In this document: in pieces, positions 7,573 through 29,352 of the stretch | Numbering within the stretch: position 1 is the first letter of the stretch | How the letters are laid out: the number at the start of each line of letters is the position of its first letter | DNA from: Ignavibacteriaceae bacterium | Lineage (GTDB): Bacteria > Bacteroidota > Ignavibacteria > Ignavibacteriales > Ignavibacteriaceae | Reading direction: 5' to 3' | Length of the DNA stretch: 64,000 nucleotides | Assembly: GCA_013360295.1 (NCBI GenBank) | Contig: JABWCL010000003.1 | Coordinates: forward strand, 62,001-126,000 | The notes under the pieces: generated by a model | Told to the model about the DNA's origin: nothing | The model's input: the letters and a program-made list of their open reading frames with translations, nothing else | Databases searched by the model: none | Program-made: the position numbers and the translations under genes

Positions 7573-7620
7573 AAGTGGGCCCTGAAGGACTTGAACCTCC
7601 GACCCGCTGATTATGAGTCA
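7573..7620 (-). repeat. attL: 3' fragment of tRNA(CAU), 48-bp direct repeat
   Basis: Identical over 48 bp to 29276-29323. It contains the 3' acceptor strand, T arm, variable loop and the anticodon loop of the tRNA but lacks the 5' half, so it cannot make a tRNA. It marks the left junction of the integrated element. Confidence 0.93.
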
Positions 7621-8404: not shown

Positions 8405-9331
8405 TTAGCTGATGATTATGCCTTCGAGTCTGGCGACGGCTTTGTTGTTTGCCAGGACAAGGGTTGTATCGAATTCGATACCGTGAACGTAGTGAACTCC
8501 GACTAAGTTGAGGTCAACTACTTCGACGCCGATGTTTGTCGGCAAGGTCAAGTCCATCCGCTCACCGAAACGGGCAGCGTAGATGCTGGTACATACCGCG
8601 CCTGAACTGCCTACGACTTCATCGTGCGGCAATACCCTATTACCTGCATTATCATATCCACCTACAACAACAGGTATCTGATTGTAATAGGATATCGGCG
8701 TGCCGAATTCATCAACTGTCGTGGTGATATATTCACGTGCGATGGATGATAGACGGCTTAAGGTCTTAACGTCCATAAAGAGCACCTGAGCACCGCCAAG
8801 AACTTTACCGATTAAATCATCGAGCATTTCGAGGAACTGCTGCTGTTTCTTTTTGGCAGTGTCGCTGTTGCCAAGGTCAACTGCGTGACCATTAGCAGAA
8901 GCGGTAATCTTTTGTGAACCGGGAACGATATACTTGAGACCATCAAAAGAGTCTGAGTTATCCTGAGAATTACCGTTGAAGAAGTAGTTCTGGAACTGTC
9001 TGCCAAGGTTGCCCGCAAAGCTGAGCAGTTCGGTTGCACGGACACTGGATATGTCTATGCCTCTTCTCTCGTGTGCTTTGTCAACTTCTACCTTATCGCC
9101 GAGAATCTTAAGTGTAGGGTTGGCGAATGATGGAGAAACAACGTTCGCGGGATAGTTGCTGTTAAGAGCACGGAACTTACCACCGCTGGCTGACGCGTTC
9201 TTGCGGACATAATCCGCGTTTCCTATCATACGATAAAACTCCGCGTATTTGAGTACGGAAGCGTTCTCGTACATTTTCATTACCACCTGTGAGGTGACGG
9301 GGTCGCTTGCTGATATTTGCTGTAACTTCAT
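8405..9331 (-). CDS. phage major capsid protein (HK97-fold type)
   Basis: 308 residues. The protein has the layout of major head proteins encoded just after a protease/scaffold gene: an N-terminal arm (MKLQQISASDPVTSQVVMKMYENASVLKYAEFYR), a core with AHERRGIDISSVRATELLSFAGNLGRQFQNYFFNG, and a C-terminal half with the strand-rich GTPISYYNQIPVVVGGYD and a closing GVHYVHGIEFDTTLVLANNKAVARLEGI. It lies 17 nt downstream of the protease/scaffold gene and ends at a strong hairpin. It would form the icosahedral shell. I recognise the role from layout and style, not from a specific named phage. Confidence 0.72.
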   Translation of the reverse strand: MKLQQISASDPVTSQVVMKMYENASVLKYAEFYRMIGNADYVRKNASASGGKFRALNSNYPANVVSPSFANPTLKILGDKVEVDKAHERRGIDISSVRATELLSFAGNLGRQFQNYFFNGNSQDNSDSFDGLKYIVPGSQKITASANGHAVDLGNSDTAKKKQQQFLEMLDDLIGKVLGGAQVLFMDVKTLSRLSSIAREYITTTVDEFGTPISYYNQIPVVVGGYDNAGNRVLPHDEVVGSSGAVCTSIYAARFGERMDLTLPTNIGVEVVDLNLVGVHYVHGIEFDTTLVLANNKAVARLEGIIIS

Positions 9332-9348: not shown

Positions 9349-10248
9349 TTAGTTTTTGTTACTGCGTGAAATTTCTTCTGCTATTATCTGTGCCGGAGAC
9401 TTAGTGCCAATACCGGCTGATGATGTTTTGTTTTTGATGACTTCTTCTGTTGTGAACTGCTTTTGCATTGAACCTACAAAGTCTCTGATAAGAGACACTA
9501 CGTCTTTCTTTATCTCGGAGAAGTCGGAAGTCTCAATCTTTTGAGCAAGACTGAAGAGCATCTCACTCTGTGGTGGAGTGATGATACCTTCGTGGGTTTT
9601 ACTGCTAAGGAAAGTGCGGAATTCCATTAAGCGCATTTGCGAATGTGCGGCTTTGAGTTCATTCTCTACCTTAATGCGCTGTTTTTCTGATTCGGTGAAC
9701 TTAAGTTCCAGGGATTGTGCTGTATTAGTGTCAGGACCAGGGACAGTAGGGACGATAGTGACAGTGTCAGTAGCAGTGTCAGTCACAGTATCAGTGATAG
9801 TGTCAGTGGAAGATGGCACGGGGACTGAATCAGGCTGGGCTGTGTCGAATTCGATTGTGGTGGTTTCTTCTGCTGCGTTGAATTCGAGGTCTTTAAGTCC
9901 TTTGACTGCCGGAGGTGCAGCGCCAAGAAATCCGACGTGCCTGAGCGTACCATCGGGATAAAGGGAAACGGAACGTTTCTTGAATAATCCCTGCCTGACT
10001 GCATCGGAGAACTCTGCAACTACATTCCGGGGGAATGCAAGGAGCCTGTCGCCAACCCTTTTAAGTTTTTCAATCCAGCCATAAGCTGGAGAATTTGTTT
10101 CTGGGTGACCTACGACAATTGGAGCCTCGTGAATTTGAGGATTGTAGGAATCTACAATCTTGTCGAGGTCGGAGTCTGACCAGGAACGTGATTTACCAGA
10201 TGAATCTGTGTGTTCCCCGGAACGGAAAATTTCAAACCATTCTAACAT
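9349..10248 (-). CDS. phage prohead protease/scaffold (Mu I-like family)
   Basis: 299 residues. The N-terminal 130 residues match the family of phage protease-scaffold proteins that begin with an EIFRSGEHTDSSGKSRSWS-like strand and carry VVGHPETNSPAYGWI and KKRSVSLYPDGTLRHVGFLGAAPPAVKGL. The catalytic Ser of such proteases lies in the RSVSLYP segment. About residues 185-230 are a helical scaffold domain. Between them, at about residues 140-173, is a Thr/Asp/Val-rich stretch (TDTVTDTATDTVTIVPTVPG) encoded by a GGGACA-type repeat tract, which looks like a linker made from a DNA repeat. It is followed closely by the capsid gene. Confidence 0.75.
   Translation of the reverse strand: MLEWFEIFRSGEHTDSSGKSRSWSDSDLDKIVDSYNPQIHEAPIVVGHPETNSPAYGWIEKLKRVGDRLLAFPRNVVAEFSDAVRQGLFKKRSVSLYPDGTLRHVGFLGAAPPAVKGLKDLEFNAAEETTTIEFDTAQPDSVPVPSSTDTITDTVTDTATDTVTIVPTVPGPDTNTAQSLELKFTESEKQRIKVENELKAAHSQMRLMEFRTFLSSKTHEGIITPPQSEMLFSLAQKIETSDFSEIKKDVVSLIRDFVGSMQKQFTTEEVIKNKTSSAGIGTKSPAQIIAEEISRSNKN
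9729..9826 (+). repeat. GGGACA/CAGTGTCAG repeat tract inside the protease gene
   Basis: Plus-strand run with GGGACAGTAGGGACGATAGTG followed by repeated CAGTGTCAGT units. It lies antisense within the protease/scaffold gene and encodes its low-complexity linker. The same kind of run recurs across the element and always on the plus strand. Confidence 0.8.
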
Positions 10249-10648: not shown

Positions 10649-11083
10649 CTAATAATTAAGAAACGATTCTTGGGTATAGGCTGTTAATAGCAAGTTTGTA
10701 TCGGCGGTGGTAAGGGACAATGAACCGTTACTTATTTGCATAAGTGTTGATACAGCCATATTAAAATTCGATTTTACTGATTCGGGAACCGGAGTCTCGG
10801 GATTGAAAGTAAAGATATAATACACCGCGATATGAAGATTGAGCGCTTTAATGAAAGAATTAGAAATCAAAGCAGGGTTACGGGCAATGAAGCCGGTAAC
10901 AAAACCGATTGAAGCGGTGACGAGGTTTGCCAGGATAACAGAAACAGGGTCTTCCGGATCTGAAAGGTCGAAGGATAGCTCGTTAGTGTAATTGAGCAAG
11001 CTAATTACTTTCTGTTCCGATAATACGGACAAAACATTAGAAGAGTTTATCGGTTGTAACTCGGGTGCTGGTTCGCCTGACAT
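10649..11083 (-). CDS. gp36-like head completion/connector protein (tentative)
   Basis: 144 residues. The pattern of an acidic N-terminal half, then an all-helical stretch with LANLVTASIGFVTGFIARN, ALNLHIAVYYIF, TPVPESVKSNFNMAVSTLMQISNGSLSL, resembles the Mu gp36-like (DUF1320) proteins that sit at the head-tail interface. In those the sequence after the second helix is also Pro-Glu-x-Val followed by an amphipathic helix and a short LSL strand. It is the first gene of the minus-strand head operon. The assignment is by pattern and context. Confidence 0.5.
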   Translation of the reverse strand: MSGEPAPELQPINSSNVLSVLSEQKVISLLNYTNELSFDLSDPEDPVSVILANLVTASIGFVTGFIARNPALISNSFIKALNLHIAVYYIFTFNPETPVPESVKSNFNMAVSTLMQISNGSLSLTTADTNLLLTAYTQESFLNY

Positions 11084-11206: not shown

Positions 11207-11560
11207 ATGGGAACCACTGAGATCGAATTAAAAAGGAGCGGGACAAAGCGAAAGGAACGCGATACCGGAAGCGCTGAGAATAAAGTGGAGAAAATGGCTG
11301 AATACGGCTTAAATAACAGGGAAATAGCGGACATCCTGGAGTATGATGAGAACACCCTGAAGAGGCATTTTGAGATTTTTCTGGTAAAAGGGAGGGCAAA
11401 TCTCAGGCAGAAGCTGAAACGCAAGCAGATTGACATTGCCCTTAAGGGGAATGTGGCGATGCTCATCTGGCTTGGAAAGCAGTACCTGGAACAGGCGGAT
11501 AATAGTAAGGACTTCAACGAACTGAAGGTGATTCTGGAACGGAAAGAGCTGGGGAATTGA
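11207..11560 (+). CDS. phage terminase small subunit
   Basis: 117 residues. A helix-turn-helix at about residues 33-60 (GLNNREIADILEYDENTLKRHF) is followed by a helical segment with NVAMLIWLGKQYLEQ, a hallmark of small terminase subunits of this kind. Small terminase recognises the packaging site and regulates the large subunit. AAGGA lies 7 nt before the ATG. It is 99 bp upstream of the large-subunit gene, the gap being filled by an AATTAAG tandem repeat. Confidence 0.8.
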   Translation: MGTTEIELKRSGTKRKERDTGSAENKVEKMAEYGLNNREIADILEYDENTLKRHFEIFLVKGRANLRQKLKRKQIDIALKGNVAMLIWLGKQYLEQADNSKDFNELKVILERKELGN

Positions 11561-11659: not shown

Positions 11660-13072
11660 ATGGAAGTAAAGCTTGAGGTAGCGTATCATCCAAAGCAGAA
11701 GGAGATATTCTTCGGGAGTGATGCAAGGTTCAAGGTCATAGCAAAGGGGCGAAGATTCGGACTGACGAGGGGATTTGCTAATTATGTGATCGAGGCTATG
11801 CTTGGGGGACTCTCCCCTATTCTTTGGGTTGATACGGTGTACGGGAATATTGAACGGTACGTTGAAAGATATTTTAAGCCGGTGCTTAACGGACTGCCTA
11901 AGTATATATGGCAGTACCGCGGGAACAGGAATGATTTGAGGATTGGGAGTGCTATTTGTGACTTCCGCTCTGCGGATAGACCGGAGAATATTGAGGGTTT
12001 TGGCTATGCGCTGGTGGTGCTGAATGAAGCAGGGATTATTCTTAAGAACAGGGCTTTGTGGAATGAGAGTATTCGTCCGATGATAATGGATTACAAAGCA
12101 AGGGTTTTAATCGGGGGAACGCCTAAGGGGAGGTATGTTAAGAGGAATGGGGAGGAGCATTTGTTTTATGAGCTGTATAACCGTGGCGCTTCGATACCCC
12201 CGACATTACTTGATAATGAGGTCGGGGTACTCAGCGACCGAGGGACAGTAGGGACTGATGGGACAATAGGGACTAAAGAGCAATGGAGGAGTTTTAATTT
12301 TTCGTCTTATGATAATCCGCTGCTGGATAAGGATGAGATTGATGAGATGGTTATGGAGATTCCTCCGATGCTGAGGGAACAGGAAGTGTTTGGGAGGTTC
12401 GTTGAGACTGAAACGGAAGGGATTATTAAAAGAGAGTGGTGGAGGTTTTATCAGGGAAAAGAAAAAAGAGACAGGGACGGGAGGGACGCTGGGGACGATA
12501 GCGAAAAAGAAACTAACCCAGAAACGGATAGGCGAGAGGGATATTGGATTCAAAGTTGGGATACGGCGTTTAAGAAGAATGCGGAGAATGATTATTCGGT
12601 GTGTACTACCTGGATGGTGGATGATGGGAAGTATTATCTTGTGGATATGTGGAGGGGTCGGGTTGAGTTTCCTGAATTGAAGAAAAAAGTTGCAGAACTT
12701 TTTTCGGAGTTCAGACCGGATGAGGTGCTTATCGAGGATAAGGCGTCGGGGCAAAGTCTGATTCAGGAATTGCAGAGGGAGACAGTTGTGCCGGTGAAAG
12801 CGATACGTGTGGCAAGCGATAAAATAACCAGGGCGAGTATCGCCACGCCGCTGATGGAAGCAGGGAAAGTATTTTTGCCAAGCGATAGGCATTGGTGTGA
12901 ACAGGTAATCAGGGAGTGTGAGGAATTTCCAGGGGGACAGTTTGACGATATTGTGGATTCGGTGACACAGGCATTGAATTATCTGAAAGATAAGGAACGA
13001 ATGCGAAGCATTCGGATTGAAGGAATTGAAAGTGAATTCGCAAAGAGAATTAATAAAATAAGGATGATATAA
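11660..13072 (+). CDS. phage terminase large subunit with repeat-derived insertions
   Basis: 470 residues. The N-terminal ATPase half contains AKGRRFGLTRGF (P-loop region, about residue 28) and SPILWVDTVYG. The acidic Walker B partner is near VVLNEAGIIL at about 120. The C-terminal RNase H-like nuclease shows SWDTAFKKNAENDYSVCTTW, LIEDKASGQSLIQEL and GQFDDIVDSVTQAL, with the three catalytic Asp. Two stretches do not fit the family. Residues about 177-208 are encoded by a palindromic element plus a GGGACA run. Residues about 270-292 (RDRDGRDAGDD) are encoded by another GGGACG run. Both lie around the junction of the two domains. The reading frame is kept, so the protein is probably still made. 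Confidence 0.9.
   Translation: MEVKLEVAYHPKQKEIFFGSDARFKVIAKGRRFGLTRGFANYVIEAMLGGLSPILWVDTVYGNIERYVERYFKPVLNGLPKYIWQYRGNRNDLRIGSAICDFRSADRPENIEGFGYALVVLNEAGIILKNRALWNESIRPMIMDYKARVLIGGTPKGRYVKRNGEEHLFYELYNRGASIPPTLLDNEVGVLSDRGTVGTDGTIGTKEQWRSFNFSSYDNPLLDKDEIDEMVMEIPPMLREQEVFGRFVETETEGIIKREWWRFYQGKEKRDRDGRDAGDDSEKETNPETDRREGYWIQSWDTAFKKNAENDYSVCTTWMVDDGKYYLVDMWRGRVEFPELKKKVAELFSEFRPDEVLIEDKASGQSLIQELQRETVVPVKAIRVASDKITRASIATPLMEAGKVFLPSDRHWCEQVIRECEEFPGGQFDDIVDSVTQALNYLKDKERMRSIRIEGIESEFAKRINKIRMI
12188..12285 (+). repeat. palindromic element plus GGGACA run inside terL
   Basis: A 50-bp unit (12188-12237) beginning GCTTCGATACCCCCGAC and ending GTCGGGGTACTCAGCGA matches an intergenic copy at 25082-25131 in about 44 of 50 positions. 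Its arms form a hairpin. It is joined to a GGGACAGTAGGGACTGATGG run (to 12275). Together they encode about 32 extra residues in frame. Confidence 0.8.
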
Positions 13073-13073
13073 T

Positions 13074-14153
13074 ATGCAGAAGGAACTTCTAAGGGAGTAC
13101 GCTACAAGGGATAAGAAGGATATAATTAAATCCTTTATGAATATACTGCCTGACCCTGACCTGATACTGAAGCAGCAATCGGGCAAGTATAATGAAATGC
13201 AGATACTTAGAAAGCTTGAATATGATTCCCACCTGATAGCCGTGAAACAACAGAGGATATTGCAAGTAAGCGCAATGCCGTGGGAGATTAATCATCAAAC
13301 CCCGCAAATACCAAAAGAAATAATGGGTACAGACCAGCAGGAAGCCTGGGAGAATTTTAATCGGGAGGTTATTAATTTCACCGCACCTGAAGGAATGGAA
13401 GATGAAATAAGGGATATGCTGATGAGAATAAATGTGGATGAGGTGATTGAGCAAGTGCTGGATGCTTTGTTCTACGGATATGTTGTATTTGAAATAATGT
13501 GGGAAATCAGGGACGGGAAGATTATGCCAAAGGCATTGATAGAGAAACCGCAGGAATGGTTTGTATTCGACACGGAAGGGATACTCAAGCTGAAGAATGA
13601 CAAGGGGGAACCATCACCACTGCCGGAGAATAAGTTTCTGCTTGTTCAACACAAAGCAAGATATGATAATCCCTACGGGTTAAGGCTACTGAGCAGATGT
13701 TTCTATCCCGTAACTTTGAAAAAGGATTGTACTGTGTTCTGGGCTTTCCTCACGGAGAAGTACGGCATGCCTTATCTAATCGGCAAAGTTACCAGGAACG
13801 CGACAAAAGAGCAGAGGGAGAATTTCCTAAATGGATTGATTGAGATGAGACGTGACGCGGTTGCGGTCATCGAAGATGATGAGAGCATTCAGATAATGGG
13901 GGACACAGGGAGGAATGAAAGTTCGGAACTGTATAAGGAGTTCATTAACTTTCAGAATAATGAAATAAGCAAAGCCATCCTCACCGTCACGCTGACAACG
14001 GAATTGCAAAGTACCGGGGCATATTCGGCAACGCAGACGCACAAGCAAATTCTCGACAGGATAGCATTAGCCGATAAGAAACTTGTAGAGCGAACCATCA
14101 ACCGGCTTATCAACACTTATCTTTTCTTGAACAAGGGCGGGCGATTCACATAA
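13074..14153 (+). CDS. phage portal protein, Mu gp29-like (DUF935), short
   Basis: 359 residues. The features of the Mu gp29-like portal family are visible: HLIAVKQQRILQVSAMPWEI near residue 55, EQVLDALFYGYVVFEIMWEI at about 125, KFLLVQHKARYDNPYGLRLLSRCFYPVTLKK, FWAFLTEKYGMPYLIGKV, and SKAILTVTLTTELQSTGAYSATQTH. Portals form the dodecameric packaging channel at one head vertex. The protein stops soon after NRLINTYLFLNKGG, where family members usually continue for about 80-150 residues, so the C terminus may be lost or naturally short. It starts one base after the terL stop and is followed by the structured region at 14181. Confidence 0.8.
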   Translation: MQKELLREYATRDKKDIIKSFMNILPDPDLILKQQSGKYNEMQILRKLEYDSHLIAVKQQRILQVSAMPWEINHQTPQIPKEIMGTDQQEAWENFNREVINFTAPEGMEDEIRDMLMRINVDEVIEQVLDALFYGYVVFEIMWEIRDGKIMPKALIEKPQEWFVFDTEGILKLKNDKGEPSPLPENKFLLVQHKARYDNPYGLRLLSRCFYPVTLKKDCTVFWAFLTEKYGMPYLIGKVTRNATKEQRENFLNGLIEMRRDAVAVIEDDESIQIMGDTGRNESSELYKEFINFQNNEISKAILTVTLTTELQSTGAYSATQTHKQILDRIALADKKLVERTINRLINTYLFLNKGGRFT

Positions 14154-14180
14154 TGTCTTTTCTTCTCTTATCCTATCTAA

Positions 14181-14527
14181 TAATCGCAAGTTTACATAAT
14201 GCCACATTATCGGCTCCCCGCCGTCAACGCAACAGCCGCCCTCTTATCAGGCTGGAGTGCGTCCGCGCTGCATACGGATAAACTTTTCCAGCGCGGGGGG
14301 AGCACGGAAGCCATCAACTAAAGCGGCTGGACTCTTTTCGGGCGGTAAGCGGATAATGTTCATTATGTAAAAGCTGCAATCATCAACTTAAGGGGCGGGA
14401 GACTATCTGGCGAAGTGGCGAAATGGTGGCATCAAATCAATCATTCTTATCAGTCCACCGAAAGGAGCCGCGCGCCCTGTCCACTTACCGCCCCACTCTT
14501 TTCTGATTGCAGCTGTACTTGCGGATT
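14181..14527 (+). ncRNA. candidate structured RNA with two nested domains
   Basis: No reading frame fits. Pairings seen: P1 AATCGCAAGT (14182-14191) with ACTTGCGGATT (14517-14527). P2 ACATAATG (14194-14201) with CATTATGT (14361-14368), then ACATTATC (14204-14211) with GATAATGT (14352-14359). P4 CAGCCGC (14233-14239) with GCGGCTG (14323-14329). P5 CCGCGCTG (14263-14270) with CAGCGCGG (14289-14296). P6 AGCTGCAATCA (14372-14382) with TGATTGCAGCT (14504-14514). P7 GGGGCGG (14392-14398) with CCGCCCC (14488-14494). P8 GGTGG (14425-14429) with CCACC (14455-14459). The stems nest without conflict into two domains closed by P1. CATCAACT, CTTATCAG and CTCTTTTC each occur once per domain. It could also act as DNA, for example a packaging or replication site. 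Confidence 0.6.
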
Positions 14528-15303
14528 CATAACCAATCAAATCAACTAAACTATAATCTGGTGAATGGGCGGGCTAACACAAATCAAAACAATTAAAAAT
14601 TAAGAATTAAGAATTAAGAATGGTGATGGAAGTTTAAGCGTCTATGAGTGGATGAATATGAGGATATAATGATAACGGGAGAGAGAAGTTTTGCGTAAAT
14701 CAATTTAAGGCAATTCAAATCAATTCAAGCTGTGCGGATAAGGGGGCTGCTGCGCAATCAAGGGCAGAGGGCAACGATACTTAAATCCGCCTTGCGCGAA
14801 GGAATGAGTGTAGTGGAGGGAATGCAGCCTGCGGAATGGACGGAACGTAACGAGAGGATGAGTCGCAGGGCGGTGAAACTTAATTGCCGTCTGCCTTGCG
14901 GAGCGCCCCAATCAGGCACAGCAACGCTTATCTTTTCTTGTCTTAGCTTTTCTTTGGTAAGTGGTAAGTGGTGATTGTAAATGAGACTATTGGGACATCA
15001 GGGACAGAGTCAGGGACTGAAGGGACATTGGAGACAGTTGCGGTAAAAGTGATTATTGCAATGTGTTAGGGTAATGATTGAAATCTTAACAAAGGAATTT
15101 CACGCAGGCGGTTGTGACTGGAAAGCGGAGCGGCAGTCACAATGGCTGCGAAGAACTTGCCTTATCAAATATTATGATGGGAATGTTATGGTGAATCGCA
15201 AAGTTTATCAAATCAGGCGCAAGGGCACTACTTCTTAAATCAGCCTTTGCGTTTTACATCACTTGCAGTCGGCAGTCTGAGGAGCGTAGAATTTCGGGGA
15301 TAG
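14528..15303. other. noncoding region with repeated hairpins
   Basis: No credible gene. It contains a family of hairpins of the form GCGCAAGGG....CTTAAAT....GCCTTTGCGC (about 14752-14800, 15200-15245 and 15327-15362), a 9-bp hairpin TTGTGACTG / CAGTCACAA (15112-15120 with 15134-15142), a long hairpin CTTGCAGTCGGCAGTCT (from 15254) with AGACTGCCGATGCAAG (to 15325), and a GGGACA run (14991-15040). Short frames here are not conserved-looking and have no ribosome binding sites. Confidence 0.5.
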
Positions 15304-15444
15304 CGGAAAAGACTGCCGATGCAAGTGCGCAAGGGCTGCTAAACTTAAATGTGCCTTTGCGCTTCTTGTAAATGCCTTTCAGGGACTTGTGGGACGGTAG
15401 GGACATCAGGGACAGGAGAAGTATCAGGGACAGTGTCAGTAAGA
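15304..15444 (+). repeat. cargo-flanking direct repeat, left copy
   Basis: The first 40 bases (CGGAAAAGACTGCC...GGCTGCTAAA) are identical to 21987-22026. After a diverged 37-bp spacer, 44 bases beginning AGGGACTTGTGGGACGGTAG (from 15381) are identical to 22063-22106. The pair flanks the TPR gene, the TAC operon and the restriction gene. Confidence 0.8.
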
Positions 15445-15790: not shown

Positions 15791-16783
15791 TTATTTGCTA
15801 TTATCGATAATAAGAGTATATGCTTCGTCAATAAACATTATTTTAATTTTCTTGACATTCTTTTTTATGAGAAAATAATTTTTACTAAAACTATAGTTTT
15901 CACTACGATTACCAGTATAGTTCGCCCAACTCTCATAAACGTCACAATACGGGGAATTTTTTTTAGTGATATTATACTTTCCCTCATCAATCATATTTCT
16001 TACAATAATATTGTCCTTTACCACAATACTTTCATTAGTTTCCGCATCGCAGATAGTGACCTGGTGGAAAGGAAAGCCGAAAGGACCATAAGCCCGCGCT
16101 ATAAAATAAAGCAAATTGTAATTATCCGGTGGACTATAGGAATAAGGTTGTCTTTTATTATCATAACGATATTCGTCAGCATCCCATACCTTCAAGTCAT
16201 CAATTTGAACAACCATTAAATGTTTAATATCTGGTTCATCGTCCCAACTGTCAAATTTCAATATGTATTGATATTTACTAAAAGCAAGTGATTTTGCTTT
16301 TTTGGCTAATTCAGTATCGCTGTTTTCAATTTCCAATACGCGTTTTAAATCATTTATACTTTCTTTAACCGGATAATTAAATTGCGAACGCAGATAAAAT
16401 GCTTCTGCATATCCAGAATCAATGGTAATTGCCTGGGAATAATCACGATATGCATTGTTGGAATCATTGGAATTGCGGTATAAGTTACCGCGCAATAAAA
16501 ACAGTTCTTTTGACTGGGGACTTAATTGAATAGCTGTTGAGTAGTCTTTGAGTGCGTCATTATAGAGTTTTAAAGAGTCATTAACGATACCACGATACTT
16601 ATAACCATTGAAGTCTTTTTTATTTTTCTGGATATACTTGCTTAAATCTTTAAGCGCTGATTTAAAATCACCAGAAAGAATTTTTGCGTTGATCTTATCA
16701 AGTTGGTTATTGCCTTTTACTTGCGAATTAGAAACCTGAGTTAATAATACTATCCCAATTAGTAAAAGTATTAATATCTTCAT
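15791..16783 (-). CDS. secreted TPR-repeat protein, cargo gene
   Basis: 330 residues. An N-terminal signal peptide (MKILILLLIGIVLLTQVSNSQ) without a lipobox Cys predicts export from the cytoplasm. Residues about 30-165 hold tetratricopeptide-like units (AKILSGDFKSALKDLSKYI, SLKLYNDALKDYSTAIQLSPQSKELFLLRGNLYRNSND, AYRDYSQAITIDSGYAEAFYLRSQF). The C-terminal half is beta-rich with many Tyr and Asn residues and no family that I recognise. Codon use is AT-rich compared with the core genes, consistent with acquisition as cargo. It lies just inside the left cargo repeat. Function unknown. Confidence 0.7.
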   Translation of the reverse strand: MKILILLLIGIVLLTQVSNSQVKGNNQLDKINAKILSGDFKSALKDLSKYIQKNKKDFNGYKYRGIVNDSLKLYNDALKDYSTAIQLSPQSKELFLLRGNLYRNSNDSNNAYRDYSQAITIDSGYAEAFYLRSQFNYPVKESINDLKRVLEIENSDTELAKKAKSLAFSKYQYILKFDSWDDEPDIKHLMVVQIDDLKVWDADEYRYDNKRQPYSYSPPDNYNLLYFIARAYGPFGFPFHQVTICDAETNESIVVKDNIIVRNMIDEGKYNITKKNSPYCDVYESWANYTGNRSENYSFSKNYFLIKKNVKKIKIMFIDEAYTLIIDNSK

Positions 16784-17230
16784 TTTATACTCCGAATATT
16801 TAACATGATGGATCGTTCTGAAAATATAATATTATGAGAAGACGAGTATGTATATTATGTATAACACAATCGTTGTAAACTATAGCTTAAAAGTACTAAA
16901 ATATTATTACGCAATATAATGATAGAGCGCGATATGATAAAAATGTATAATTATATGAATTATGAGCATGAATTGATTACCTTAGGTCATACAGAGAACC
17001 CCACACTAATTCACGCCATTAAAAAATGGAGGAGATTAATTAGCAGTGACAGGAACAGGTACAGTATCAGTGACAGTGACAGAGACGCGTGCGAGGGGTC
17101 TTTAGGAGAAGTTAGGGACTGGTGGGACTTTTGGGACGGATGGACGAAATTATTAGTAAAATATATAGTGATTGAAAATTGCTGGGGATTGCGTCCATGC
17201 GTCCAAGGGAGGTACTGAATAAGTTAAATA
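16784..17230. other. noncoding gap between the TPR gene and the TAC operon
   Basis: 447 bp. The AT-rich part near 16800-16920 probably holds the promoter of the TPR gene. Positions 17043-17146 are a repeat run (GTGACAGGAACAGGTACAG, TAGGGACTGGTGGGACTT, TTGGGACGGATGGACG). A 99-codon frame over this run is repeat-derived and I do not accept it as a gene. Confidence 0.5.
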
Positions 17231-17695
17231 CTATTCAGCAGCTTTATTGGGGTCCGTCGCAGTAACCATGATCAACTTTGATGGGTCAATAATGGGCATA
17301 AAAATGCCACGAAGATTCGTACTTTCCGTTTTCGATAAGAGTATGCCACGAGTCGTGGATAAGGAGATACTTATTAATGTTATCAGAAATTGAGACGGAT
17401 AAGTAATATTCCCTTCCTTTATGGTAAATGCCTCATTAAAATTATTAATGAGAAATTTGAAGCGGGTAATCATATGACAAACAATCGGATTTGGCGCAGA
17501 GTCGGCAGAAATGTCAACAATAATATCAATTCCGACGATTTTGTTTTCTACTTCGAAAAAGAATCCAGCTTCTATTTTGAATGGGAATTTTGTTTTATCC
17601 AGCGATGCAATATCTGGCAGATTAAAAATTACAAATTCTAAAGTTTGTATGTCAGCTATTGAAAACTGAATTTGGATTTGATTTGAATCAGGCAC
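17231..17695 (-). CDS. SecB-like chaperone of a toxin-antitoxin-chaperone system
   Basis: 154 residues, close to SecB length. SecB-like layout: an N-terminal strand with IADIQTLEFVIFNLPDI, a long beta segment (KFPFKIEAGFFFEVENKIVGIDIIVDISAD), a strand ITRFKFLINNFNEAF, a helix with ITYPSQFLITLISISLSTTRGILL, and a closing MPIIDPSKLI that parallels the RGTFPxLNLxPVNFDALF end of SecB. The GTG start overlaps the antitoxin stop by 8 nt (GTGCCTGA), so the two are translationally coupled. In TAC systems the chaperone protects an unstable antitoxin. The order toxin-antitoxin-chaperone is as in the mycobacterial HigBA-Rv1957 system. Family call is by pattern; no search was possible. Confidence 0.6.
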   Translation of the reverse strand: MPDSNQIQIQFSIADIQTLEFVIFNLPDIASLDKTKFPFKIEAGFFFEVENKIVGIDIIVDISADSAPNPIVCHMITRFKFLINNFNEAFTIKEGNITYPSQFLITLISISLSTTRGILLSKTESTNLRGIFMPIIDPSKLIMVTATDPNKAAE

Positions 17696-18188
17696 TGATT
17701 GCCTCCGTAGTATAAATAGTATCTTGTTTTGCTACAAGTTTTAATTTAGAATAATACTTCTTATCAGATTGGTGACCGGGTTTTAAAAAGCGATCTAAGG
17801 AAGGATTAACGACAGCAGGCTTATCTCTCCCGGATTCCGAGATCTTGAATATACTGATGCTATCTGACGGTTGAGAAGAAGTGTTTAGAACAAAATCAAA
17901 ATTATTCTGCAAGTCAAATGCAGTGTAGAGAATTTGGGTATTAGTTTTTGCTTCAATCTGAGCAATGGTTTTAAGAGTAAAATTGTGGCGACCTGTAAGC
18001 CATTTACTAATTTCAGATTCTTTTTTATCGAATAATGAAGCAAAATATTTTTGTTTGCTGTCGAACTGCGCCCTAATTATTTCATTCAGCACAGCAGCAA
18101 TACCCATAGAAAGCCTATTATAGTTTTTGATCTCCGGAGAGACGGAATCTAATATTTTTTTAAACCAATCAGCGGTATAATTTTTCAT
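17688..18188 (-). CDS. XRE-family antitoxin with C-terminal extension (TAC)
   Basis: 166 residues from the ATG at 18188, which has AGG 8 nt before it and lies 7 nt after the toxin stop. A Cro/C1-type helix-turn-helix is at about residues 30-85 (FASLFDKKESEISKWLTGRHNFTLKTIAQIEAKTNTQIL). Beyond it is a tail of roughly 70 residues ending YYSKLKLVAKQDTIYTTEAISA. In TAC systems such a tail is the chaperone-addiction segment bound by the SecB-like partner, and here the tail would fit that role. It likely binds and neutralises the upstream toxin and represses the operon. Confidence 0.7.
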   Translation of the reverse strand: MKNYTADWFKKILDSVSPEIKNYNRLSMGIAAVLNEIIRAQFDSKQKYFASLFDKKESEISKWLTGRHNFTLKTIAQIEAKTNTQILYTAFDLQNNFDFVLNTSSQPSDSISIFKISESGRDKPAVVNPSLDRFLKPGHQSDKKYYSKLKLVAKQDTIYTTEAISA

Positions 18189-18195
18189 TGTTGAC

Positions 18196-18654
18196 CTATA
18201 AATCAATTTCGAAATCGATATCTAAATAATCCTGAAGTTCGGTAATTTTAATTTTCAGTAAAAGAAGTTTTTTGTTAATAGCTTCCAATATTTTAACCGC
18301 AAGATCGAGTTCAGGTATCTCGCGAAGATTTTTAACAGTATGGGGTTTAACCCCTCCCCCGCCAATGATAATCGCCAAATCATCATATTTTAGGCAATAT
18401 AAACGCAAAGTACCCGAATCAAGGAAACGATAGACATAATTTGAACGCTGATATTTGAAGAAGGTGCTTTGAATTCCAAAATCAGCCATCTTATCTATTG
18501 AGTCCAATAAAATACCACAATTGCCGGGATCAATCGGATAATACTTCTCAGCAAATTCCTGAAAAAGAGACATTGACGAACCCGAAAAAATAACCGATAG
18601 AAAGAGCGCTTTATCGGATTTTTTAATTATTTCAAGTTTGAATTTTTTCTTCAC
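18196..18654 (-). CDS. RelE/HigB-like toxin candidate (TAC)
   Basis: 152 residues from a GTG start. The C-terminal half (YVYRFLDSGTLRLYCLKYDDLAIIIGGGGVKPHT followed by LREIPELDLAVKILEAINKKL) resembles RelE/HigB-superfamily toxins paired with XRE antitoxins in Bacteroidota, where a strand-turn-strand containing an Arg-Leu-Tyr unit is followed by a Gly-rich turn. Such toxins usually cleave mRNA on ribosomes. The N-terminal half is less clear. It is the first gene of the three-gene operon and lies 49 bp after the restriction gene's stop. Function is inferred mainly from operon context. Confidence 0.55.
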   Translation of the reverse strand: MKKKFKLEIIKKSDKALFLSVIFSGSSMSLFQEFAEKYYPIDPGNCGILLDSIDKMADFGIQSTFFKYQRSNYVYRFLDSGTLRLYCLKYDDLAIIIGGGGVKPHTVKNLREIPELDLAVKILEAINKKLLLLKIKITELQDYLDIDFEIDL

Positions 18655-18703
18655 TTATAAGTTAAGATTTCTTATGAATAAAAAAAATGATAAAAATCAC
18701 ACA

Positions 18704-21700
18704 TTAGTTATTTGGTAGAAATGGGATTTTATCAATTTCGTGCATTAGCCTGTCAGTCTCGGAAAGGGCGACGATGATTTTCTGATAGTGGAGGATGTCG
18801 TCGAAAGAGAGTACTCTCCCCTTTCTGTCTTTGAGCCATTTTTGTGCGGGCTGGTAGCCGCCGATGTAGAAGTTCCAGGCGACTTCGGGGACACCGGAGA
18901 AGTATTGAGCGCTGTTAATGTAAACTTTGCCGTCATCGTATTTTACTTTATCCACTGTGTTGAAACCTGTAACCGGAAACCGAGTGATTAAATTATTGAG
19001 AACAGGGCTCTCAAAAAGATGAAGCTGGCGGAGCTCACTGCCGAGTTTGACAAGCTGCCAGAATGTTTCTTTGTCTTTTGGATAAGGTATACGAGGGAAA
19101 TCGGATTTAAGAAATTCGATATATTTATTACGATAAAATGGCGAATATAAAATAGAATACAGATAATCAAGAATGTAAAGCGAATTAACAACAATGGAAT
19201 CTGATGATGAAATGTTATCTGAATTCAGGGTAAAAAAAGACGAGAATTTGTTATAAATATCAAGATTCATATTGGAGGTTTTATTTCCCTCAATATCATA
19301 AATATATAGTGGGAAAATACTATCTATGCTTACACTATCAGATCTTATATAACCATTTGGAATTATATATTTAGATAAGAAATAATATGACACTTGATTC
19401 TGTGGTGGTTGTTTGCTGACGGTCACAAAACCTATATTTATATCACGAATGAAGTGTTGCATAACATCATAACGACTACGCTCAATAAAATTTACGTCAT
19501 AATAAATAAATCTATTATCTAATGGACGATAAGATATGTGTTTTATATAGTCAAATGAAGAAGATGAAGCAACGTTTTTAACTTGATCAATTTTCCAACT
19601 ACCATTTTCTTTTAGATCATATTTCTTTATTAGATCAAATTTATTCAATGAGAAAAAATCATCTATGCGGCTTCTTAAAGTGGCTTCATTATCATCAATA
19701 ATGAAAGAGTCACGAGAAGTAACAACGCCGACACTTTTTATATTGAATAAATCATTAATGCTGAACCCTTTTGTGTACTCGGATTCAAGATCAAAATTCT
19801 TTTTGACCATAAAATACTTAGGAGGGTTAGACTGTATTCTACTGTATTGCAATGAACGAATTGAATTATTGAAAAGGAATTCATACTTAAGTTCTCTTTC
19901 ACCATACAGATCATAGTGATAAACTTCAGCTAGATCACCGGGCTTTTTATTACCAGTTTTAATGAAAAAATTTATAGATACACCCTGCTGAATATCGAAT
20001 ACGTTGACATCGGGGGAGCCATCGGGAGAAGTTTCTTTTTTCTTGCTGTTGCCGTGAAGATCAAGCGTATAAATTTTATCGTAGGTTTTGAGGAGATTCC
20101 AGCGCATACCGCGGAATGTTGGATTGTCAAGGAAGCCGTGTGGGTTAATGAATGCAAGAATTCCAATTCCATTCTTTTCGATATGGTATTGCGCGTAGCG
20201 GATGAATTTCACGTAGTCGTCATTAATCCATTTAGGGTTACGTTCTTTAAGTTTTTCTTTTCCGCCAGGTTCTTTTTTATAGTCTTCCATCAAGTTCATA
20301 ATCCACACGCCTTTGTTAGCGCTTTCGCCGCTGTATGGAGGATTGCCTGTAAGAACGAGCATAGGAATATCGCGTTTTATGTGGTTTGCTTCGTTTGCTT
20401 CGGTGCTGAGCCAGTTTGCAAAAAGGGTGCCTGTGTCGGGATGGTGCTCTTCGAGTGTGTTCGTTAAGAAAATACGGAAGCGCTGATCTTTGGTTGGTTT
20501 GAAACCTGTTTCAGTAAGCAGCAAATCCAATTTAAGATGAGCCATAGCATAGGAAGCCATTAAAATTTCGAAGCCATTAAGCCGAGGGATAAGATGATTT
20601 TCAACGTAATCGCCCCAGATACCCTCCTGCCCTTCAAACCGCTGATGAATAAGTTTTACGATTTCCGCGAGGAATGTACCTGTACCGGTGGCGGGGTCGA
20701 GGATTTGTACTTTATGTATTTCCTGCTCGTATTTCTTACCGTTCTGATCCAGTTTAATTTTAATCTTACTATTATCAGCGATACCCGCAGTAAGACCAAA
20801 TTCTGAGACAAGAATTTCGTTTATTGACCGAACAATAAAACTTACTACAGGCTGCGGAGTATTCCATACGCCGCGCGATTTACGGAGTTTGGGGTCATAT
20901 TCACTTAGGAAGTTTTCATAGAAATAAATAATGGGATCTTCTTTGCGGGTATCTTTACCGTAGTCTTTAAGAAGCTCGGCTACGTTACAAGCGAGGAAGA
21001 TTTCAACAAGGTCGTCCACAATCCAGCGAATACGATCATCGAGGTCAGGACCGGCAATATAGCCAAAGAGTTTACGGAGAAAGGGATTAGATTTAGGGAT
21101 AAGTTCGGCAGCTTCCTGGCGAGAGAAGTCGGGAATAGAAGGATCGTGAAGGCGTGCCGCGAACATACCGTAAACTATAGTCTGAGCATAAACATCGGCG
21201 AAGCTTTTAGGTGTAATATCGTGGATAAGGATTTCCCGAAAGGCTTTCATTTGGTCGGCGAGTGTACTGTTCTCGTCGGATTCCTGGTCGCTTGTCAACG
21301 CGCGGTTAATGACATCGGCGAGCAAGCGCGCCTTTGCAGCCATAAGCTGCGCAAGGCGGAGAGGACTTTTTATTGTCTGACCGATATTTGAACAGAAGTC
21401 AGTTAATTGTTCAGTAAAGCGTTGAAAGTTTTCAGGGAGAGCTTTAATTCCTCTTGAAGTTACTTTACCGATTGTGATTTGAGCGATAAGTTGTCCGGAG
21501 CGGTAAAAGTGGAAATCGAGATAGTCAGTAAAAATAATATTATTAAGTGAGGATTTGTAGCGGTCGAACTGTTCCTGATTACCTTGTTTTTTCTTTCCTA
21601 CGAGGTCTGGATCCCCTATGTCTTTTGCTTCGATAAAGCCAATGGGGATGTCTTTACGGGTGAGGATGTAGTCTGGAGCGCCGCATTTTTGGCGCTTAGG

Positions 21701-21832
21701 CTCATTTGTAGCCCTTATGCCGGGTACAAGACTTTCGATAAGCTGCTGAAGGTCGCCGCGGAAGGTATGTTCTGTGGCGTTACCGAGTTTGTACCTGTTA
21801 TTAATGCTGGATAAGTAATGTTCTAAAGTCAT
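18704..21832 (-). CDS. single-chain restriction-modification enzyme (type ISP/IIG-like)
   Basis: 1042 residues from the ATG at 21832 (MTLEHYLSSI); frames extending to 22015 add a Ser/Leu-rich tail that does not belong. The N-terminal PD-(D/E)xK nuclease is visible at about residues 48-75 (GAPDYILTRKDIPIGFIEAKDI). A helical coupler of about 250 residues follows. The N6-adenine methyltransferase has motif I DPATGTGTFLAEI and catalytic NPPY in VLTGNPPYSGES. The C-terminal part with NPKWINDDYVKFIRYAQYHIEKNGIGILAFI and GVPEVAWNFYIGGYQPAQKWLKDRKGR matches the type ISP specificity region. I see no helicase block between nuclease and methylase. It would cut unmethylated foreign DNA and protect the host copy. 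Confidence 0.88.
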   Translation of the reverse strand: MTLEHYLSSINNRYKLGNATEHTFRGDLQQLIESLVPGIRATNEPKRQKCGAPDYILTRKDIPIGFIEAKDIGDPDLVGKKKQGNQEQFDRYKSSLNNIIFTDYLDFHFYRSGQLIAQITIGKVTSRGIKALPENFQRFTEQLTDFCSNIGQTIKSPLRLAQLMAAKARLLADVINRALTSDQESDENSTLADQMKAFREILIHDITPKSFADVYAQTIVYGMFAARLHDPSIPDFSRQEAAELIPKSNPFLRKLFGYIAGPDLDDRIRWIVDDLVEIFLACNVAELLKDYGKDTRKEDPIIYFYENFLSEYDPKLRKSRGVWNTPQPVVSFIVRSINEILVSEFGLTAGIADNSKIKIKLDQNGKKYEQEIHKVQILDPATGTGTFLAEIVKLIHQRFEGQEGIWGDYVENHLIPRLNGFEILMASYAMAHLKLDLLLTETGFKPTKDQRFRIFLTNTLEEHHPDTGTLFANWLSTEANEANHIKRDIPMLVLTGNPPYSGESANKGVWIMNLMEDYKKEPGGKEKLKERNPKWINDDYVKFIRYAQYHIEKNGIGILAFINPHGFLDNPTFRGMRWNLLKTYDKIYTLDLHGNSKKKETSPDGSPDVNVFDIQQGVSINFFIKTGNKKPGDLAEVYHYDLYGERELKYEFLFNNSIRSLQYSRIQSNPPKYFMVKKNFDLESEYTKGFSINDLFNIKSVGVVTSRDSFIIDDNEATLRSRIDDFFSLNKFDLIKKYDLKENGSWKIDQVKNVASSSSFDYIKHISYRPLDNRFIYYDVNFIERSRYDVMQHFIRDINIGFVTVSKQPPQNQVSYYFLSKYIIPNGYIRSDSVSIDSIFPLYIYDIEGNKTSNMNLDIYNKFSSFFTLNSDNISSSDSIVVNSLYILDYLYSILYSPFYRNKYIEFLKSDFPRIPYPKDKETFWQLVKLGSELRQLHLFESPVLNNLITRFPVTGFNTVDKVKYDDGKVYINSAQYFSGVPEVAWNFYIGGYQPAQKWLKDRKGRVLSFDDILHYQKIIVALSETDRLMHEIDKIPFLPNN

Positions 21833-21986
21833 GAAATTAATCCTGTCATAAAGAGAACCCGCCGAACCGGAAAAAGGACTGAAGAAAAATGAATTATAAT
21901 TTAAATATAGAGATAAGGGCGGGATAATACAATAAAGAGGCAAAGCGATTGGAGCCTGGCGAGCTAAGTAACTGTCAGAGGTACGC

Positions 21987-22127
21987 CGGAAAAGACTGCC
22001 GATGCAAGTGCGCAAGGGCTGCTAAAAATAATGTGCGTTTGCATTTCTTATCAATTCTTTTTAGGGACTTGTGGGACGGTAGGGACATCAGGGACAGGAG
22101 AAGTATAAGGGACAGTGACAGTAAGAA
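21987..22127 (+). repeat. cargo-flanking direct repeat, right copy
   Basis: Partner of 15304-15444: 40 identical bases, a diverged spacer one base shorter, then 44 identical bases from 22063, and AAGGGACAGTGACAGTAAG in place of CAGGGACAGTGTCAGTAAG. Same orientation, 6683 bp from the left copy. Confidence 0.8.
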
Positions 22128-22484: not shown

Positions 22485-22559
22485 TTGACAAGATGATGTA
22501 TAATTTATAAATATTGTATTTGCTTAATGAAATTTGAGAAAAACATACGAATATCGTAT
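22485..22559 (+). promoter_or_regulatory. promoter-like site with palindrome ATACGA-ATA-TCGTAT
   Basis: TTGACA at 22485-22490 and TAAATA at 22508-22513 are 17 nt apart. A 6-3-6 palindrome ATACGAATATCGTAT is at 22545-22559, about 30 bp downstream, where a repressor could act. Bacteroidota promoters often differ from this consensus, so the promoter call is weak; the palindrome is plain. Confidence 0.35.
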
Positions 22560-22711
22560 ACCCGCGTAAATACAGGGCGGGAGGAAAACAAGTTACTTTT
22601 TTATAGATACCGTAAAAATGGTTTGAACATGTGAAAAAAAAAGTTAATTGGTGAAAAAACTTTTTTTAAAAATAATTTTGATGCTACTATTTAAATTTAT
22701 ATTATTGCACT

Positions 22712-22726
22712 TGTGTAGTATACACA
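22712..22726 (+). promoter_or_regulatory. operator-like palindrome TGTGTA-GTA-TACACA
   Basis: Perfect 6-3-6 palindrome 34 bp before the ATG of the 311-residue gene, with the same half-site and spacer lengths as the palindrome at 22545. Likely a repressor binding site. Confidence 0.45.
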
Positions 22727-22759
22727 GAGTGTTTAATTCGTAGAAAAACTAGATAAGGA

Positions 22760-23695
22760 ATGAAAATAAAAAATGAAGAACGCAGATACATACAGGCAGA
22801 GAGGAGCATAACAACACTCTACGCGAGCAGTGCTCTTGTAAAATATAATGATGTTTCTTTAGGCGATGTGCGGGAAATTTATTTCCCAAACAATTATGGA
22901 TTATTGGAGAAGCATGTACTTAGTTTCGCCGATATGGCAGCCAGCATTGACTTTCTGATCGCACTAAAGCATGACCTGAAAGCTTATTTACAGAACAGGT
23001 ACTACGCGAATGCTTGTCAAGCGGGGAAAAGGTGCAAAACCGGAAGGAGAAATATCATCCAGATAAATGGAGATGGGCGAACTCCCCCCTATCGTTCAAG
23101 TCTTGTCAGTGATGAAATCTTCGAAAGTTTAGAGTTAAAAGAGAAAGAGTTCTTAATTAGTTTTGAGCAGTTATGCTCTATGCAAGCGGAACGAATTGAG
23201 AAAAAGAAGCTGTATAAAGATTATCTTATTCCAAACAAGATAATATACCCGGGAGAAATCGAGGATGCAATTGTAGTGCCAGACAACTCAATTGAGATTT
23301 TCAAATGGAATGCGAACGAAACCCATCTAAAACAAACTTATGATTTATTGCATGAGTATAATCTTATACCTGATAATGATTTCAACCATTTTCGCAAATT
23401 TTTCATAATTATAGGATCAGCAGATGAACAAGCAACTAGAGAGAATCCGAAGGCTATAAGATGGGGTGGGCAAGTAAATGAGCTTGCGCAAATAATTAAT
23501 GGGCTGTGCGAGTCTTCACTGATACTGGCGGGAAAAAGGAAATGGGAAATAACCTGTAAGGCATTCTTTATTCCAGGGAAAAATCTCAAACCTTCATTAC
23601 TTTCAAAGGCGCTATCAAAAGGCAACAGCAGTACAGGAAGAACAATTGACGCAGTAGTGAATGAAATAAGAAAGCATATCCAGAATACAAATTAA
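22760..23695 (+). CDS. uncharacterised element protein (RteC-like C terminus, tentative)
   Basis: 311 residues, no signal peptide or membrane segment. The N-terminal half is helical and basic (KHDLKAYLQNRYYANACQAGKRCKTGRR). The C-terminal half includes ETHLKQTYDLLHEYNLIP, AIRWGGQVNELAQIINGLCESSLI and a closing FIPGKNLKPSLLSKALSKGNSSTGRTIDAVVNEI. The Trp-Gly-x-x-x-Glu-Leu-x-x-Ile unit resembles the C-terminal region of RteC-like proteins and related hypothetical proteins of Bacteroidota mobile elements. A palindromic operator lies just upstream. It could be a regulator of the element, but no function is proven. Confidence 0.65.
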   Translation: MKIKNEERRYIQAERSITTLYASSALVKYNDVSLGDVREIYFPNNYGLLEKHVLSFADMAASIDFLIALKHDLKAYLQNRYYANACQAGKRCKTGRRNIIQINGDGRTPPYRSSLVSDEIFESLELKEKEFLISFEQLCSMQAERIEKKKLYKDYLIPNKIIYPGEIEDAIVVPDNSIEIFKWNANETHLKQTYDLLHEYNLIPDNDFNHFRKFFIIIGSADEQATRENPKAIRWGGQVNELAQIINGLCESSLILAGKRKWEITCKAFFIPGKNLKPSLLSKALSKGNSSTGRTIDAVVNEIRKHIQNTN

Positions 23696-23705
23696 CCATT
23701 CTAAC

Positions 23706-23737
23706 AGGTAATAGAGGTAATATTACCTCTATTACCT
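23706..23737. promoter_or_regulatory. perfect 32-bp palindrome of GGTAAT units
   Basis: AGGTAATAGAGGTAAT is followed directly by its exact complement (23722-23737). Each arm contains the unit AGGTAAT twice, and TATTACCCC follows at about 23752, giving five related half-sites. With no loop it is a poor hairpin terminator, though TTTCC follows. Iterons or a cooperative operator seem more likely. Confidence 0.55.
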
Positions 23738-23793
23738 TTCCTACACCCAACTATTACCCCCCAACTCAGTATATATTCTCAAATTTCATTAAG

Positions 23794-23812
23794 TGAATAA
23801 TGAAATTATTCA
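23794..23812. promoter_or_regulatory. operator-like palindrome TGAATAAT-GAA-ATTATTCA
   Basis: Eight-base arms with a 3-base spacer, 30 bp before the ATG of the 78-residue gene. A likely protein binding site in its promoter. Confidence 0.4.
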
Positions 23813-23841
23813 TTCTAATTTTAAATTAATTTGGAGAATAT

Positions 23842-24078
23842 ATGCGTACCGACGAAAGAAATGTTCTGATGAACTCCAAGACTTCTACATATATCCTTGC
23901 TGAATTGCATAAAAGAATTAGCAAGATAAATTCATCATATGAGAAGAAGATAAGCGAGAGCCAATACGACAGAAATAAAACGAAATTAATAAAGGAGCAA
24001 GTTGAATTTATCATCAGCCTGCTGAACATAATTGATTACGCCATGCTGACCACGGAAAAAACTTTAGGCATTGACTGA
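23842..24078 (+). CDS. small helical protein upstream of the recombinase
   Basis: 78 residues, predicted all-helical (ILAELHKRISKINSSYEKKISESQYDRNKTKLIKEQVEFIISLLNIIDYAML), charged, no membrane segment. GGAG lies 6 nt before the ATG. It ends 25 nt before the recombinase ATG, so the two are probably cotranscribed. Excisionase-like or accessory DNA-binding roles are common for such genes, but no helix-turn-helix is evident. Unassigned. Confidence 0.6.
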   Translation: MRTDERNVLMNSKTSTYILAELHKRISKINSSYEKKISESQYDRNKTKLIKEQVEFIISLLNIIDYAMLTTEKTLGID

Positions 24079-24103
24079 GACACAAATTAGACGAGGAGAA
24101 AAA

Positions 24104-25006
24104 ATGCAAGAAATTATGCGAGAGATGATCGAGAATATGATGCAGGGAGTAATACGGCAGGCGGGGATTCTTCTGGCGGATTTCGTGGAGCGTTATTTAA
24201 GGCTTGAGGGACCGGAGCACAGTGAAAGTTATAATGCTTCGATTAAATATTGCCTGGATAAACTTATTGAGTACTGTGGTAAAGGAGCGCTGCTCAGTTC
24301 TATTAATATGGTGACGGCAAAGGAAGTCCTTGCTATGCTCTCGAAGGGCGCACCGCTGGGGATAAATGTATACCTGAGGAACTATAAGTCTGTTTTTAAT
24401 ACCGCTAAGAAATGGGGATATATCAGTGAAAATCCATTCCAAGGAATTAAACTTAAAAAGAGGCAGAAGATGAGACCGGAGTTTCTGACAGAGGATGAGG
24501 TAAGGATTGTGGCGAAGTATCTGACATGGAATTTCGCGGACATTGTGTGGACGGCTTACTATACGGGGATGAGGGCAAATGAGATATTGAGCCTGCGGAG
24601 AGAGGATATAATGGATAGCGAAAGAATGATAAGGGTCGGGAGTAAGGACTTTGAAACAAAAGCACGGAAGGTTCGGCTCGTTCCTGTTCATTACGCTCTA
24701 TGGCCGATAATTGAGAGGAATATCCGCGGGAAGAATAAGGGTGATTTCGTTTTCGGGAAGAGGAAGCATGCGAAGTATACGGTGGATTGTGTGTCGAAAA
24801 AATTTAAGAAGGCGTGCAGAGAAGCGGGGCTGAGTGAGGAGATTCATTTTCACAGTTTACGCCACTCATTCGGAACTAACGCGATAGCTAAGGGGGCACC
24901 GATAACGGCGGTGCGGGATATTATGGGGCACTCGTCTATTCAGGTGACGCAGATTTACGCTCATACGGATGAGAGGATGTTGAGGGAGGCGATTGAAAAA
25001 TTATGA
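24104..25006 (+). CDS. tyrosine recombinase, second of the element
   Basis: 300 residues from the ATG at 24104, with AGGAG 5 nt upstream; a TTG at 24071 is less likely. The SAM-like core-binding domain spans about 25-125 (LLADFVERYLRLEGPEHSESYNASIKYCLDKLIEYC). The catalytic domain has Arg in YTGMRANEILSLRREDI, HSLRHSFGTNAIAKG (His-x-x-Arg), MGHSSIQVTQIYAHT (His and the Tyr nucleophile). It lacks the arm-binding N-terminal domain that the integrase at attR has. It may resolve multimers, act on other sites, or be left over from another element. Confidence 0.88.
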   Translation: MQEIMREMIENMMQGVIRQAGILLADFVERYLRLEGPEHSESYNASIKYCLDKLIEYCGKGALLSSINMVTAKEVLAMLSKGAPLGINVYLRNYKSVFNTAKKWGYISENPFQGIKLKKRQKMRPEFLTEDEVRIVAKYLTWNFADIVWTAYYTGMRANEILSLRREDIMDSERMIRVGSKDFETKARKVRLVPVHYALWPIIERNIRGKNKGDFVFGKRKHAKYTVDCVSKKFKKACREAGLSEEIHFHSLRHSFGTNAIAKGAPITAVRDIMGHSSIQVTQIYAHTDERMLREAIEKL

Positions 25007-29138: not shown

Positions 29139-29175
29139 TTTTTTTTCTGTGATGCGGGAGTGCCTTTTTTGACCA

Positions 29176-29207
29176 GACTGGGACAAAACTGGGACAAAAC
29201 TGGGACA
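29176..29207 (+). promoter_or_regulatory. candidate integrase arm-type sites, right end
   Basis: Three copies of (A/G)ACTGGGACA at 29176, 29187 and 29198, exactly 11 bp apart, 69 bp inside attR and just upstream of the integrase start. They match the two copies near attL. They may also let the integrase control its own promoter. Confidence 0.5.
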
Positions 29208-29275: not shown

Positions 29276-29323
29276 AAGTGGGCCCTGAAGGACTTGAACC
29301 TCCGACCCGCTGATTATGAGTCA
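29276..29323 (-). repeat. attR: 48-bp direct repeat within the tRNA(CAU) gene
   Basis: Identical to 7573-7620. It is part of the intact tRNA at 29279-29352. The repeat ends inside the anticodon stem, a common crossover site for tyrosine integrases. Confidence 0.93.
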
Positions 29324-29352
29324 GCTGCTCTAACCAACTGAGCTAAGAGCCC
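29279..29352 (-). tRNA. tRNA with CAU anticodon (Met elongator or Ile2)
   Basis: Minus-strand cloverleaf: acceptor GGGCTCT / AGGGCCC (one G-U), D arm AGCTCAGTTGGTTAGAGC, anticodon stem GCTGA/TCAGC around CTCATAA, T arm GGAGG-TTCAAGT-CCTTC. CCA is not encoded. It is not an initiator tRNA, as position 1-72 is paired. Met and Ile2 cannot be told apart safely by eye. It is the integration target of the element. Confidence 0.93.

Follow-up and report, generated by a model that had tools for sequence, protein, structure and literature searches.

A hairpin of two inverted dif-like sites in a putative phage satellite of Ignavibacteriales resembles folded single-strand recombination sites

Folded single-strand Xer sites have been described for filamentous phages such as CTXphi, whose attP comprises a pair of inverted dif-like sites separated by about 90 bp; the + strand folds and XerC alone exchanges strands (PMC3089051, PMC5357621). 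Here we analysed a structured element that follows a phage portal gene in the window (the whole stretch of 64,000 nucleotides under analysis) and found that the outer stem of its first domain is formed by two inverted dif-like arms.

The preliminary description had proposed a nested two-domain fold with a closing stem, and such a fold is present at 14181-14527 (Table 1). Folded as RNA, this segment had a minimum free energy of -142.5 kcal/mol (z -5.9, 0 of 100 shuffles as good), and its + strand folded as DNA gave a z of -6.1 with no shuffle as good; the lowest z among 31 other 347-nt windows sampled through the surrounding island was -3.6. Because the repeats are inverted, the minus strand folds too (z -6.1). 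The long stems are TTACATAATG/CATTATGTAA and ACATTATC/GATAATGT in domain 1 and AGCTGCAATCA/TGATTGCAGCT in domain 2. The fold signal came from the dif-like arms (z -4.7 for the whole domain-1 hairpin) and from domain 2, and the interior of domain 1 was weak when folded alone. That a structured element without a known family follows the portal gene was thus borne out by this fold and by the Rfam 15 covariance models, which gave no match at 14181-14527; no open reading frame longer than about 46 aa overlaps the segment. The repeated octamers noticed earlier do exist, but as a motif they are weak and post hoc (five repeated 8-mers, P about 0.03 in shuffles). Homologue searches found none for the inner stems of domain 1 or for the domain 2 hairpin. 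The domain 2 hairpin stays outside the reading that we favour; in some relatives, a different GC-rich hairpin lies directly after the dif hairpin. At 14586-14622, the window also carries a AAGAATTAAG-type repeat that occurs in about 40 places across the genome.

Table 1 Features of the hairpin and of the island that carries it, in window coordinates
Feature	Position	Strand	Basis
Closing stem, CGCAAGT with ACTTGCG	14185-14191 with 14517-14523	+	RNA and DNA folding
Left dif-like arm	14189-14217	+	Exact dif half-sites
Left arm parts: XerD-type half AGTTTACATAA; 7-bp centre TGCCACA; XerC-type half TTATCGGCTCC	14189-14199 (XerD-type); 14207-14217 (XerC-type)		
Enlarged apical part of dif hairpin (inner stems of domain 1)	14218-14345	+	z -1.8 alone
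Right dif-like arm, inverted	14346-14373	-	Exact dif half-sites
Right arm parts: XerD-type half; 6-bp centre TGAACA; XerC-type half	14373-14363 (XerD-type); 14356-14346 (XerC-type)		
Domain 2 hairpin, closed by AGCTGCAATCA/TGATTGCAGCT	14372-14514	+	Folding, RNA z -4.7
attL, 48 bp identical to 3' part of tRNA-Met	7573-7620	.	Repeat
Major head protein	8405-9331	-	PHROG 212
Head maturation protease	9349-10248	-	PHROG 976
Mu gp36-like head-tail adaptor	10649-11083	-	Pfam PF07030
Small terminase candidate	11207-11560	+	Position and homologues in other islands
Large terminase	11660-13072	+	Pfam PF17289, PHROGs
Portal protein (Mu type)	13074-14153	+	Pfam PF06074
Cargo: TPR protein, three PDC-M64-like genes, type IIG/ISP restriction enzyme-methyltransferase	15791-22015	-	
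Second tyrosine recombinase YR2	24071-25006	+	Catalytic residues aligned with host XerC
Prim-Pol primase/polymerase	25495-27840	+	
Tyrosine integrase, adjoins attR	28065-29186	-	
attR, inside intact tRNA-Met 29278-29352(-)	29276-29323	.	Repeat

A search with the whole of 14150-14560 returned the window itself and short matches only, many of them to dif or to the arms of dif hairpins. In a family-wide DNA search, the short matches to the outer stem of domain 1 fell on loci of two kinds, some with one plain dif (for example, AGTTTACATAATATACATTATCGGACA) and others with two facing dif-like sites about 70 nt apart. The arms are derived from dif: across the 4.46-Mb genome of the window, the only zero-mismatch dif matches are the two arms and a single plain dif on contig C89, where a xerC-like gene lies about 5 kb away. 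From 14190 onwards, 22 bases of the left arm are identical to the arms of relatives, and the right arm is identical to that of G061 at 19 of 19 positions. All 14 hairpin-bearing genomes examined have a plain dif elsewhere, at 0-2 mismatches in 13 and at 3 in G118. DNA folding leaves unpaired bases at the centre of the site, where most arms keep the TGT of dif on the XerC side and none keeps its XerD-side bases; a few arms have ACTTTAT at the centre, and L135 and L158 have other centres. The arms lie about 70 nt apart in relatives and about 140-160 in the window. Both arms of the window copy are exact, but it is without the GTGCCGAG and CTGGCTG flanks found in relatives, and it has an enlarged apex (about 50 nt in most relatives) and a second hairpin. 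Since apical insertions also occur in three relatives (L152, L156 and L162), we read the inner stems of domain 1 as a variable apex. In a search for long-interior hairpins like that of the window, only L162 was found, and its extra apical sequence has no clear link to that of the window.

A covariation check in homologues, suggested by the preliminary description, supports the outer stem of domain 1. In the aligned arms of 20 hairpins, the window included, eight pairs had changed on both sides; there were 42 double-changed cells compared with 15.5 in shuffled sets (0/500), and the covariation score was 0.238 compared with at most 0.052 in slid controls, counts that kinship among the hairpins inflates but probably does not wholly cause, given the slid control and the five pair types seen at one position. 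Across 41 distinct arm pairs, the non-Watson-Crick pairs were 50 G-T and 3 A-C, that is, wobble on one strand only, and because of this bias we take the folding strand to be the one read from left arm to right arm, the + strand of the window. As judged from these comparisons, the pairing of the arms is under selection and one single strand folds. Covariation and wobble bias signify a folded single strand and alone do not separate single-stranded DNA from RNA; DNA is favoured because the arms are dif.

A covariance model found such hairpins, usually 112-133 nt long, in 37 of 164 genomes of Ignavibacteriales, with at most nine matches per genome, and it recovered the window copy (28.9 bits, E 7e-4 in 163 kb). 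Scanning 84,980 species with a pattern yielded 29 stretches, from Ignavibacteria, Melioribacteraceae, 'Bacteroidetes' or unnamed MAGs, and Chryseobacterium balustinum. Nine IMG/VR contigs carry the hairpin. No match was found when an Ignavibacterial hairpin was compared by blastn with phage records or the Chryseobacterium hairpin with plasmids, and the window portal gave no match among viral contigs. In C. balustinum, two tandem tyrosine recombinases and a primase of the DnaG type adjoin two dif hairpins (L209 2686-2790 and L215 533-637), with RHS-like genes nearby, and a likely dif is located elsewhere, away from the hairpins. G005 has two dif hairpins in the same orientation (L058 4221 and 12999), 8.8 kb apart with genes between them, possibly a two-unit array.

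The island carrying the window copy spans 7573-29323 (21.7 kb) at tRNA-Met, with an exact 48-bp repeat of tRNA-Met sequence at its two ends. To judge by its genes, it is a capsid-forming phage satellite; no tail gene was recognised among the island proteins scanned, a set that covers the small ORFs in part. The hairpin recurs in the same island context, with a plan of integrase, Prim-Pol, YR2, cargo, hairpin and structural module, and in nine other contigs it lies downstream of a portal gene. The structural module consists either of head and packaging genes (G061, L205, L226-L231 and L234, which are nine contigs with about seven distinct elements) or of a small gene and an unnamed protein family. 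An assignment of a recurrent 228-241-aa hairpin neighbour to DUF6266 was dropped, with no match in Pfam and NCBIfam. To the right of the hairpin of several f2 islands, a peptidase-M15-like gene is conserved, mostly followed by a holin-like gene (L152, L156, L157, L184, L189, L190 and L191), both names being given by reading rather than by family search. Beside the integrase of the G061 island, a second copy of the integrase C-terminal codons (L110 9273-9407) is possibly an att duplication. Within the window island, a direct repeat of about 140 bp (91% identity; 15304-15444 and 21987-22126) flanks the cargo block from the TPR gene to the type IIG restriction enzyme and may be a mark of how the cargo arrived. 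At 22499-23817, 42-nt imperfect inverted repeats surround an ORF of 311 aa for which Pfam, NCBIfam and PADLOC gave no match, possibly a small transposon.

The reading that we favour, with about even confidence, is that domain 1 represents a dif-derived recombination site formed by one folded strand, similar to CTX attP or attC, in a capsid-forming satellite island. The + strand would become single-stranded during replication, repair or transfer of the island, and its two inverted arms would pair into one double-stranded Xer-type site with unpaired central bases and a variable apex. An Xer-type recombinase, most likely the host XerCD, would then carry out a single strand exchange between this site and a dif-like partner, in the manner of XerC at CTXphi attP; replication would complete the reaction. 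We infer the recombination itself, its enzyme, its partner and its benefit, which might be another route of integration, an exchange of cargo or the handling of dimers. The setting favours single-strand recombination, as the island encodes a Prim-Pol and two tyrosine recombinases, and two tandem recombinases likewise accompany a primase in Chryseobacterium. Against this reading, the window island sits at tRNA-Met, where its own integrase seems to have inserted it, the outer XerC-arm bases agree only partially with the dif of each host, and the window copy lacks the flanks of its relatives. In the genomes checked, neither a hairpin adjoining a dif nor a recombinant junction came to light, and comparing the flanks of close relatives revealed no sharp boundary at the putative crossover and no clear cassette edge.

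The main rival, which we consider unlikely, is that the hairpin is the site of YR2, an attC-like device by which cargo would enter or leave between YR2 and the hairpin with no need of host Xer. YR2 adjoins Prim-Pol in all Prim-Pol islands read, and cargo lies between YR2 and the hairpin in most, but in only 27 of 44 cases is the first cargo gene oriented towards the hairpin (P 0.17, not significant). The hairpin pair of G005 would fit such a device, whereas close relatives show no sharp cassette edge, the arms resemble the host dif, and YR2 scored 74 bits against an integron-integrase cut-off of 265.

The preliminary description had suggested a possible new structured RNA and pointed to GOLLD and ROOL, which are large folded elements near phage genes. 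That the hairpin is a structured RNA of its own, or that it gives structure to the 3' region of the portal transcript, now seems quite improbable to us. Covariation and the one-strand G-T bias would fit RNA as well, but the arms match dif even at bases that pairing does not need; in the window, hairpin and portal gene share one orientation, but many islands have neighbouring structural genes that are directed away from the hairpin. In contrast to GOLLD and ROOL, the window element has no Rfam match, and its main, covarying stem, two inverted dif copies, reads as a DNA recombination site. A likeness to these RNAs is not supported, and the RNA interpretation of 14181-14527 is displaced as the preferred one.

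We give little credence to a double-stranded Xer site that resolves dimers of the excised island, in the manner of cer or psi, with incidental folding. Circular forms of the island would benefit from it and the arms are dif-like, but a single dif would suffice, and it leaves unexplained both the inverted pair 160 bp apart and the one-strand compensatory change. A chance inverted repeat or a terminator, although the window hairpin does lie between the convergent portal and cargo genes, is highly implausible in view of the covariation, the recurrence, the AT-rich stem and the many relatives in which the neighbours are not convergent.

If the favoured reading, a dif-derived site that recombines as a folded single strand, is true, a recurrent covarying dif hairpin in tailed-phage-type satellites would carry single-strand Xer recombination into a further class of mobile elements, hint at how satellites might acquire or exchange defence cargo, and offer an intermediate, open to testing, between Xer/dif and the attC sites of integrons. 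More tentatively, and in our view with a low probability, this satellite family may keep a dif-derived folded site and a dedicated YR2 for an integron-like exchange of cargo whose origin would lie in chromosomal Xer/dif and be independent of integrons. In the literature searched, no paper names both Ignavibacteria and phage satellites.

Among known systems, the strand-biased circularizing elements SE-6283 and SE-6945 also have two tyrosine recombinases, and their one-strand circles are a possible parallel; inverted structures of the dif or attC kind were not detected at their att sites, and no head genes seem to be reported for them (PMC9345347). Like cfPICIs, the island has an integrase, a primase, its own head and packaging genes and no recognised tail gene (PMC11389934), but it differs in its Ignavibacteriales host, Mu-type portal, second recombinase and dif hairpin, and any mobilisation by a helper phage is putative. 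Integron attC sites share the folded single strand, unpaired central bases, variable apex and preference for one strand (PMC4792948); here, by contrast, the arms are dif rather than R and L boxes, close relatives show no clear cassette boundary, and the recombinases are not integron integrases (YR2 74 bits against 265). The CTXphi-type attP of IMEXs differs in that the carrier here is a tailed-phage-type satellite with its own integrase at tRNA-Met, and the hairpin lies inside the island, not beside dif, with an apex of about 140 nt in the window. Integration at a chromosomal dif was not encountered, plain dif lying elsewhere in all genomes checked, and calling the element an IMEX fails because the hairpin is not located at dif. 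That it may work like a CTX-type attP is supported by its anatomy: an inverted pair of dif-like sites, less than 100 bp apart in relatives, a single-strand fold, and a centre with dif bases retained towards XerC and lost towards XerD (PMC3089051, PMC5357621).
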